From positions 1-46,382 of the forward strand of contig PMOB01000029.1 in the NCBI GenBank assembly GCA_003161615.1: a stretch of DNA of 46,382 nt, read 5' to 3'. The DNA is from Actinomycetota bacterium. Lineage in GTDB: Bacteria; Actinomycetota; Thermoleophilia; Gaiellales; Gaiellaceae. The notes under the pieces were generated by a model. That model was given only the letters and a program-made list of their open reading frames with translations, did no database searches and was not told the DNA's origin. A program made the position numbers and the translations under genes. Within the stretch, counting starts at the first letter, position 1, and each line of letters opens with the position of its first letter. Of this stretch, positions 9,900-45,845 are shown in pieces.

Positions 9900-9906
9900 G
9901 GCGCGG

Positions 9907-9916
9907 AGCGTACGCT
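9907..9916. promoter_or_regulatory. Palindromic bidirectional -10 element between divergent genes
   Basis: AGCGTACGCT is a perfect palindrome. It supplies TACGCT on each strand, the two hexamers sharing the central TA. Each hexamer is seven bases from its start codon: GTG at 9899 on the minus strand and ATG at 9924 on the plus strand. The whole intergenic spacer is 24 bases. Both transcripts would be leaderless. The same geometry recurs at 45265-45274. Confidence 0.65.
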
Positions 9917-9923
9917 TGCGCGC

Positions 9924-43779: not shown

Positions 43780-43935
43780 ATGGCGGCAGTCGTCACAGCC
43801 CTCCTTGAGGAGATCGACGAGCGCCGGCGCCGCGTCTACGCGCTCACGGCGGCGGGCGTACAACCCGCGGGGATGCGGGAGCTGAAGGAGGAGCTGCACT
43901 CACTCCGCAAAGAGCTCGCGCTGGCCGTCGGCTAG
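43780..43935 (+). CDS. Small charged protein downstream of the exporter (51 residues)
   Basis: A 51-residue protein, MAAVVTALLEEIDERRRRVY onwards, ending in a helix rich in Glu/Lys/Leu (MRELKEELHSLRKELALAVG). It looks like two short amphipathic helices joined at a Pro-Ala-Gly turn. The ATG begins one base after the exporter stop, so it is co-transcribed with the pump. No family recognised. The stop shares a CTAG with the opposing dipeptidase gene's stop. Confidence 0.6.
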   Translation: MAAVVTALLEEIDERRRRVYALTAAGVQPAGMRELKEELHSLRKELALAVG

Positions 43936-45257
43936 CGCAGCTCGCCAAGCCGCGTGTAGACCGCGGCGGCCGTGTCGATTCCCTGCTCGAAGTAGCGGTA
44001 GAGGAACTTTTCGTTCGGCGAGTGGACGTTCGACTCGGGCAGCCCGAAGCCCGTGATGATCGTCTGGATTCCCTTCGCCTCGAGCGCGGGGACGATCGGG
44101 AGCGTTCCACCCGTGCGGACGAGCAGCGGGCGGATGCCGAGAACCTGCTCGAACGCGTCGGCGCCGAGTCGGATGGCGGGCGCGTCCGGGCGCATCAGGC
44201 CCGCGGGTACACCGCTCCAGACGATCTCGACGTCCGCGCCGGCCGGAGCCGCATCGCGCATCAGCTTCTCGGCAGCGGCACCGATCACGTCCACCTGCTG
44301 GCCAGGCGCGAGGCGGACGGTCACCTCGCCGGCGGCTTGAACGGAGAGCGTCGTATTCCGCACGCCCGGCTTGCCGCCGATGATCCCATTCACGTCGGCA
44401 GACGGCTCGGCGAGGGTGCGGATGTTGAACTGCGCCGCCGCGCCGGCGTCGAGCGGCCGCGCGCCGGCGAGCGCCAGCTCGTCCTCGCCGGAGGGAAGCG
44501 CCTTCCAGTTCTCGAGCTCCGCTTCGGTCGGCGCGACGATGCCCTGCCGCAGCGACTCGGGCAGCAGCCCGTTCTCGCCCGCCGTCACCGCCGCAAGGCA
44601 GCGCATCAGCACGTGGATCGCGTTGAGCGCGGCGCCGCCGTACATCCCGGAATGGAGGTCGCGCTCGCCGGTGCGAACCTTGAGGTCGAAGGCGATCAGG
44701 CCGCGCGTCGCGAGGCTGAAGACCGGCACGTCGACGCGGAGCATGCCGCCGTCGAAGATGATCCCCGCGTCGGCGCCGACGGTGTCTTGCTCGATCCAGT
44801 CGACGATCGTCGTGCCGCCGATCTCCTCCTCGCCGTCGAACGCGAAGCGGAGGTTGACCGGCAGGGCGTTTGCCTCGACGAGCCGCTGCGCCGCCTTGAG
44901 CATGATGAAGAGCTGGCCCTTGTCGTCGGTGATGCCGCGCGCATAGGCCCAGTCGCCCTTGACGGTCAGCTCGAACGGGTCGCTCTCCCAGAGGTCGAGC
45001 GGGGCCGGCGGCTGGACGTCGAAGTGGTTGTAGACAAGGACGGTCGGCGCATTCTCGGGATCGGTCGACGCCGGGATCTCGCCGAGCGCGAGCTCCTTCT
45101 CCCCCCACGGCGTCAGCTCGGCGGTGCCGCCGATGCGGCGGATGAAGTCGCAGGCCCACTCGCCGGCGCGCTTGACGTCCTCGCGGAACGCCGGGTCGGC
45201 GCTCACGCTCGGGATCGCGATGAACTCGGCCAGCTCTGCGCGCGATGCGTCGTCCAT
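43932..45257 (-). CDS. M20-family metallopeptidase (dipeptidase)
   Basis: A 441-residue di-zinc peptidase of the M20/carboxypeptidase G2-type family. Metal ligands: His in VYNHFDVQPP, Asp in ARGITDDKGQ, the Glu pair of DGEEEIGG (general base and ligand) and the late His in ESNVHSPNEKF. The dimerisation (lid) domain sits in the middle (ERDLHSGMYGGAALNAIHVL). It probably degrades dipeptides or acyl-amino acids. The ATG at 45257 follows TAGGAT by seven bases on the minus strand, sharing a bidirectional element with the VOC gene. Confidence 0.93.
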   Translation of the reverse strand: MDDASRAELAEFIAIPSVSADPAFREDVKRAGEWACDFIRRIGGTAELTPWGEKELALGEIPASTDPENAPTVLVYNHFDVQPPAPLDLWESDPFELTVKGDWAYARGITDDKGQLFIMLKAAQRLVEANALPVNLRFAFDGEEEIGGTTIVDWIEQDTVGADAGIIFDGGMLRVDVPVFSLATRGLIAFDLKVRTGERDLHSGMYGGAALNAIHVLMRCLAAVTAGENGLLPESLRQGIVAPTEAELENWKALPSGEDELALAGARPLDAGAAAQFNIRTLAEPSADVNGIIGGKPGVRNTTLSVQAAGEVTVRLAPGQQVDVIGAAAEKLMRDAAPAGADVEIVWSGVPAGLMRPDAPAIRLGADAFEQVLGIRPLLVRTGGTLPIVPALEAKGIQTIITGFGLPESNVHSPNEKFLYRYFEQGIDTAAAVYTRLGELR

Positions 45258-45264
45258 GAGCGCG

Positions 45265-45274
45265 ATCCTATGCT
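45265..45274. promoter_or_regulatory. Bidirectional overlapping -10 elements
   Basis: ATCCTATGCT contains TAGGAT for the minus-strand dipeptidase (45270-45265) and TATGCT for the plus-strand VOC gene (45269-45274), sharing the central TA. Each hexamer is seven bases from its start codon (ATG 45257, GTG 45282), with a total spacer of 24 bases, identical to the pair at 9907-9916. Confidence 0.65.
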
Positions 45275-45281
45275 CCGCCCC

Positions 45282-45845
45282 GTGCGCTTCGTGGAGGTCA
45301 CGCTCGCCGCTCCGCCCGATCGCCTCGCCGAGCTCGAGACGTTCTACGCAAGGATGACCGGGGAGACGACGCTCCGTTTCCGCGCCGGCGAGGGCGAGCC
45401 GTTCTACCACTTCGCGCTGCTCCTCCCCGGCGACCGCTTCGACGCCGCGCTCGCGTGGGCGGAGAAGCGGGTCGAACTGCTCGGCGGCGTCTTCGAGTCT
45501 GAGAACTGGGACTCGCGCGCCGTCTACTTCCACGATGCGGCCGGCAACATCGTCGAGCTGATCGCGCACCACGGCCTCGAGGAGAATGGCCGCAGCGGCC
45601 CGTTCCACGCGGAGGAGATCGTCGGCTTCTCGGAGCTCGGCCTCGTCGGCGACCGCCGCGAGCTGCTCGGTGAGCTCGCGCCGCTCGGCCTGAGCGTCTG
45701 GGCCGGCGAGCTCGACGAGCCCGAGCGGCTCGCCTTCGTCGGCGAGAAGGGACGGACGTTCATCCTCGCCCAGGCCGACCGCGGCTGGCTGCCGCTCGGC
45801 CGTCCGGCGGAGGTGCACCCGGTCGAGTACGTCGTCGGCGCTTAG
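45282..45845 (+). CDS. VOC-family (glyoxalase/bleomycin-resistance-like) protein
   Basis: A 187-residue VOC protein. The N-terminal half has RFVEVTLAAPPDRLAELETFY and FYHFALLLPGDRFDAAL; the middle AVYFHDAAGNIVELIAH carries a likely metal Glu, and the C-terminal half repeats the fold less clearly. The activity is unknown. I use the GTG at 45282, seven bases after TATGCT; the ATG at 45270 would lie inside the -10 element. Its stop overlaps the sigma-factor gene's stop by four bases on the other strand. Confidence 0.85.
   Translation: MRFVEVTLAAPPDRLAELETFYARMTGETTLRFRAGEGEPFYHFALLLPGDRFDAALAWAEKRVELLGGVFESENWDSRAVYFHDAAGNIVELIAHHGLEENGRSGPFHAEEIVGFSELGLVGDRRELLGELAPLGLSVWAGELDEPERLAFVGEKGRTFILAQADRGWLPLGRPAEVHPVEYVVGA

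Follow-up and report, generated by a model that had tools for sequence, protein, structure and literature searches.

The window analysed here, the whole 46,382-nt stretch of contig PMOB01000029.1 (Actinomycetota, Gaiellaceae), corresponds to contig C22 of an assembly of 2.32 Mb in 35 contigs. In it a dipeptidase gene and a VOC-superfamily gene diverge from a gap of 24 bases, and a second gap of the same length lies at 9.9 kb. The features, in window coordinates, are as follows.

43932 to 45257, minus strand: M20-family dipeptidase-like gene, predicted leaderless, with its +1 predicted at about 45257
45258 to 45281, both strands: gap of 24 bases between the two genes, predicted to be the entire bidirectional promoter, as judged from the sequence, the orthologues and the divergent-pair survey
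45265 to 45274, both strands: decamer ATCCTATGCT, two predicted -10 elements with TA (45269-45270) in common
45265 to 45270, minus strand: predicted -10 element TAGGAT of the dipeptidase gene, with a spacer of 7 nt to ATG 45257 (6 nt to GTG in orthologues)
45269 to 45274, plus strand: predicted -10 element TATGCT of the VOC gene, with a spacer of 7 nt to GTG 45282
45270 to 45272, plus strand: in-frame ATG within the plus-strand -10 element (T-ATG-CT), an alternative and less likely VOC start, found in all five genomes compared
45282 to 45845, plus strand: VOC-superfamily gene, akin to toxoflavin lyase and predicted to be leaderless, with its +1 predicted at about 45282
9900 to 9923, both strands: companion site (copy 1), a 24-base gap with the palindromic decamer AGCGTACGCT (9907-9916) between a gamma-glutamyltransferase gene (minus strand) and a membrane-protein-like ORF (plus strand)

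Direct reading of the gap gives CAT (45255-45257), GAGCGCG, ATCCTATGCT, CCGCCCC and GTG 45282, an N7-decamer-N7 layout whose letters and coordinates agree with those of an earlier sequence-only reading of this DNA. Both start codons are predicted, and a gene caller that scores coding potential alone arrived independently at the same two, 45257 and 45282. By inspection, no Shine-Dalgarno sequence lies at the usual spacing upstream of either. Within ATCCTATGCT the predicted -10 elements of the two strands overlap each other reciprocally and hold the TA in common, the arrangement that defines a bidirectional promoter, and the predicted distance between the two transcription start sites (TSSs) is 25 bp if both RNAs begin at the start codons. 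Toxoflavin lyase and the toxoflavin-degrading enzyme are members of the VOC superfamily. A family profile built for the VOC protein matches both (toxoflavin lyase structures 3pkv and 3oul; E about 1e-30); the protein alone found no match in Pfam or NCBIfam, and a structure prediction from three sequences (pLDDT 35) was set aside.

The spacing on both sides of the gap is that of a large class of genes in this genome. In a sample of 1.91 Mb (82% of the genome, read in stretches) with 1473 well-scored genes, TANNNT stands 6 nt ahead of 125 starts and 7 nt ahead of 111, against a background of about 3-4 per position and so about 30-fold above it, and a spacer of 8-9 nt is found at about 100 more genes. 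Both 7-nt spacers of the gap fall inside this 6-7 nt peak. By this geometry, about 23% of called genes appear to be leaderless. As an alignment of 402 of these promoters carries no information upstream of the -10 element, no -35 element appears to be used.

A protein search for relatives returned mainly Thermoleophilia and other actinobacterial metagenome genomes, together with a single genome that bears the label Acidobacteriota and one distant match from an archaeon. The divergent dipeptidase/VOC pair is retained in four further genomes of the same genus, where the gaps read GGCGCG-ATCGTATGCT-CAGGACG, GGGGCG-ATCGTATGCT-CAGGTCG, GCAGTG-ATCGTATGCT-CGGGCCG and GAGGCG-ATCCTATGCT-GCGGTCC. The flanks vary and the decamer is ATC[C/G]TATGCT in all five, a phylogenetic footprint that is invariant at 9 of 10 positions when 30% of the four-fold synonymous sites of the dipeptidase are (five genomes; P about 1e-4), although genomes of one genus are related and do not amount to five independent observations. 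The gap is 24 bases here and 23 in the four relatives because the dipeptidase spacer is 7 nt here and 6 nt there, so that total length is not the quantity preserved. A constraint on the 24-base spacing, as the sequence-only reading had supposed, is therefore not supported, given the 23-base orthologues and the range of 22-26 bases seen in the class as a whole, and in this genome divergent gaps of exactly 24 bases are no more frequent than those of neighbouring lengths. The VOC gene adjoins the dipeptidase in only some genomes of the genus. Where it is missing, the dipeptidase retains a TANNNT 7-8 nt ahead of its start, which in some of these genomes overlaps, by eye, the stop codon of an upstream gene that points the same way.

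The conserved TATGCT could also be read as coding. An annotation could open the VOC gene at the in-frame ATG 45270, leaving a gap of 12 bases, and automatic annotation may indeed place the start there, inside the gene's own predicted promoter. Only the dipeptidase promoter would then be real, TATGCT would be kept as a start plus a leucine codon, and the VOC mRNA would begin elsewhere. ATG-CTS is in frame in all five genomes, with arginine as the next residue in four of them, as this reading would have it; yet the T that precedes the ATG is just as invariant, the residues that follow ML differ by non-synonymous changes (RP, RT, RS, GP, RS), and a downstream ATG or GTG start is available in 5/5 genomes. 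Furthermore, ATG 45270 has neither a TANNNT 6-8 nt upstream nor a Shine-Dalgarno sequence, the coding-only caller favours 45282, and most other shared-TA pairs of the genome have different decamers that lack such an ATG. We consider this start unlikely and retain GTG 45282.

The overlap of two -10 elements at a shared TA recurs among the divergent genes of this genome far beyond expectation. When divergent pairs with a -10 element on both sides are sorted by the offset between the two, offset 0 (shared TA) holds 11 pairs (Poisson P about 1e-9) and offset -5 (TANNNTA) holds 4, whereas offsets between 2 and 20 hold about 0.8 each. Double -10 elements as such are found in 47 pairs where 42 are expected under independence; the excess concerns the manner in which the elements overlap and not how often they are paired. 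In the 1.91 Mb, and with the spacing to the start codons left free, 22 of the 101 sites matching ANNNTANNNT and 16 of the 56 matching TANNNTA fall in short divergent gaps, which account for 0.19% of the DNA (concentrations of 116-fold and 152-fold); scrambled decamers reach 2- to 5-fold and ATNNNAT 9-fold. Gaps of shared-TA pairs measure 22-26 bases and are composed of 6-8, 10 and 6-8 bases, and divergent gaps of 17-29 bases are enriched overall (47 pairs in 13 length bins, against 50 pairs in 30 bins for 30-59). At a 6-nt spacer the recurring offsets of 0 and -5 equal 23 and 18 bp, matching known preferred TSS distances. The shorter heptamer class, TANNNTA in gaps of 18-21 bp, is found in this genome (G000) at C31:124631/124650, C27:30348/30368, C27:33473/33493 and C17:266225/266247, and corresponds to the bidirectional promoters whose TSSs lie 18 bp apart.

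A count over 129 genomes of the order gives 180 occurrences of CAY-N7-ANNNTANNNT-N7-RTG and 56 of its reversed pattern; decoys with the same decamer at spacings of 4 and 10 nt number 35 and 15, and the TANNNTA counterpart is found 120 times and its reversal 47 times. Most of the same-genus sites examined lie between divergent ORFs of at least 100 codons in both directions. The exact 7-10-7 pattern proposed earlier thus holds up order-wide, and strongly once gene position is counted, but not as a raw count in this genome (4 against 3 for the reversed control). In a phylum-wide sample the raw pattern count, which is confounded by G+C, gave no clear excess, so that recurrence is established for the order. 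One sequence that matches the 4-nt decoy pattern, CACGTGGACTTTACSRTSGAGGTG (G000:C9:6522-6545), recurs in many genomes of the order and is probably a conserved coding stretch.

These counts bear on whether the shared TA could be an accident, in which the TANNNT of one gene happens to supply the matching A for the other. In a short gap a shared TA costs one base, a single extra letter suffices, and in this genome the 7-10-7 pattern, counted raw, is about as frequent as its reversed control. Against this, the mirror position that creates the second -10 element is A in 11 of the 13 pairs whose geometry makes them eligible (it is absent from the other 2), where 12-17% would be expected, and in 5/5 eligible pairs when starts are taken from the coding-only caller with no guidance from the motif; across all leaderless genes the same position is A in 12%. 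Together with the conservation of the decamer and the order-wide excess over decoy spacings, this makes coincidence very improbable.

The companion site at 9.9 kb has the same 24-base gap and a different sequence, its AGCGTACGCT being palindromic where ATCCTATGCT is not. Two other genomes carry AGCGTACGCT unchanged at their orthologous gamma-glutamyltransferase pair, with differing flanks. The earlier suggestion that the two sites reflect functional constraint and not a duplicated element is upheld, in that recurrent sites carry different decamers and each decamer is conserved among its own orthologues. A specific regulator whose operator is the decamer, placed between two ordinary promoters, would account for the perfect palindrome at 9.9 kb and for conserved bases that extend beyond the TANNNT letters, but the decamers of different sites are alike in little except those letters, as expected of promoters and not of one regulator, and the gap is too small to hold further promoters at the leaderless distance. 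We find this explanation scarcely credible.

We propose a model in which the 24-base gap is very probably a bidirectional promoter of -10 elements only, with no -35, that yields two leaderless mRNAs; conservation of the decamer in five genomes, the TANNNT geometry, the shared-TA excess and the order-wide enrichment all favour the overlapping -10 elements and leaderless starts that had been predicted. The housekeeping RNA polymerase, presumably with the housekeeping sigma factor, would recognise either TANNNT. As the two elements share a self-complementary TA step, the -12T of each promoter is base-paired to the -11A of its counterpart, and polymerase would melt the same step in either orientation and initiate at or next to the corresponding start codon, producing leaderless mRNAs for the dipeptidase and for the VOC protein that would be translated without a leader. 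Since either orientation engages these same base pairs, occupancy would be exclusive, an argument made before for bidirectional promoters of E. coli (PMC12825309), and polymerase, facing one way at a time, would leave the two genes sharing a melting site and either competing or co-regulated. More tentatively, as a possibility we hold somewhat short of probable, the doubly leaderless, -35-free bidirectional promoter may be the standard, selected arrangement of divergent genes in this Thermoleophilia order. The entire control region of a gene pair would then span 22-26 bp (shared TA) or 17-21 bp (TANNNTA), with one short symmetric element fixing where each gene begins to be transcribed and translated. 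If true, this layout would stand apart as a minimal subclass among bidirectional promoters.

The sites also suggest that the symmetry seen in TSS maps of E. coli promoters has left a clear evolutionary trace in an uncultured lineage of high-G+C soil bacteria, and that leaderless mRNAs allow the whole control region of two genes to be as short as about 24 bp. Bidirectional promoters may be sought from sequence wherever two start codons diverge at close range, by looking for ANNNTANNNT or TANNNTA in the gap, a search that would also serve to correct start codons.

Bidirectional bacterial promoters with reciprocal -10 elements have been described (Warman, Grainger and Wade, Nat Microbiol 2021, as cited in PMC10268837); among them TSS distances of 18, 10 and 23 bp are preferred (PMC12825309), and the working range of divergent TSS distance is 7-25 bp (PMC10268837). 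Like the sites reported here, these have overlapping opposite-strand -10 elements with symmetric bases in common, and their 18- and 23-bp distances equal the TANNNTA and shared-TA offsets. Those promoters were identified from TSS maps, in these papers of E. coli and Salmonella (PMC12825309, PMC10268837), whereas ours are defined from their letters; one of the two RNAs there is often non-coding, whereas both here are predicted to be leaderless mRNAs, so that the promoter would occupy the whole gap; and the present sites lie in high-G+C DNA with no -35 signal. The TANNNT geometry agrees with that of leaderless promoters in Actinobacteria and Deinococcus-Thermus as given in three reports (Zheng 2011, PMC3160421; Cortes 2013, PMC3898074; PMC12340547), where the first T lies about 12 bp before the start codon, no -35 is conserved and about 20% of Actinobacteria genes are of this type. 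In those reports such promoters are described as one-directional, whereas here two predicted leaderless genes would use one TA. The open-licence literature, as far as its available text extends, did not yield a description of the recurrent, conserved combination of a shared-TA bidirectional promoter with two leaderless genes. PMC3898074 does call closely juxtaposed divergent promoters common in M. tuberculosis, and its adjacent divergent genes prpD (Rv1130) and Rv1129c, with TSSs mapped at both start codons and both therefore leaderless, resemble in this respect the pair predicted here. Both components, the reciprocal -10 promoter and the leaderless TANNNT, are thus already known, and their regular combination in this lineage is a new instance.
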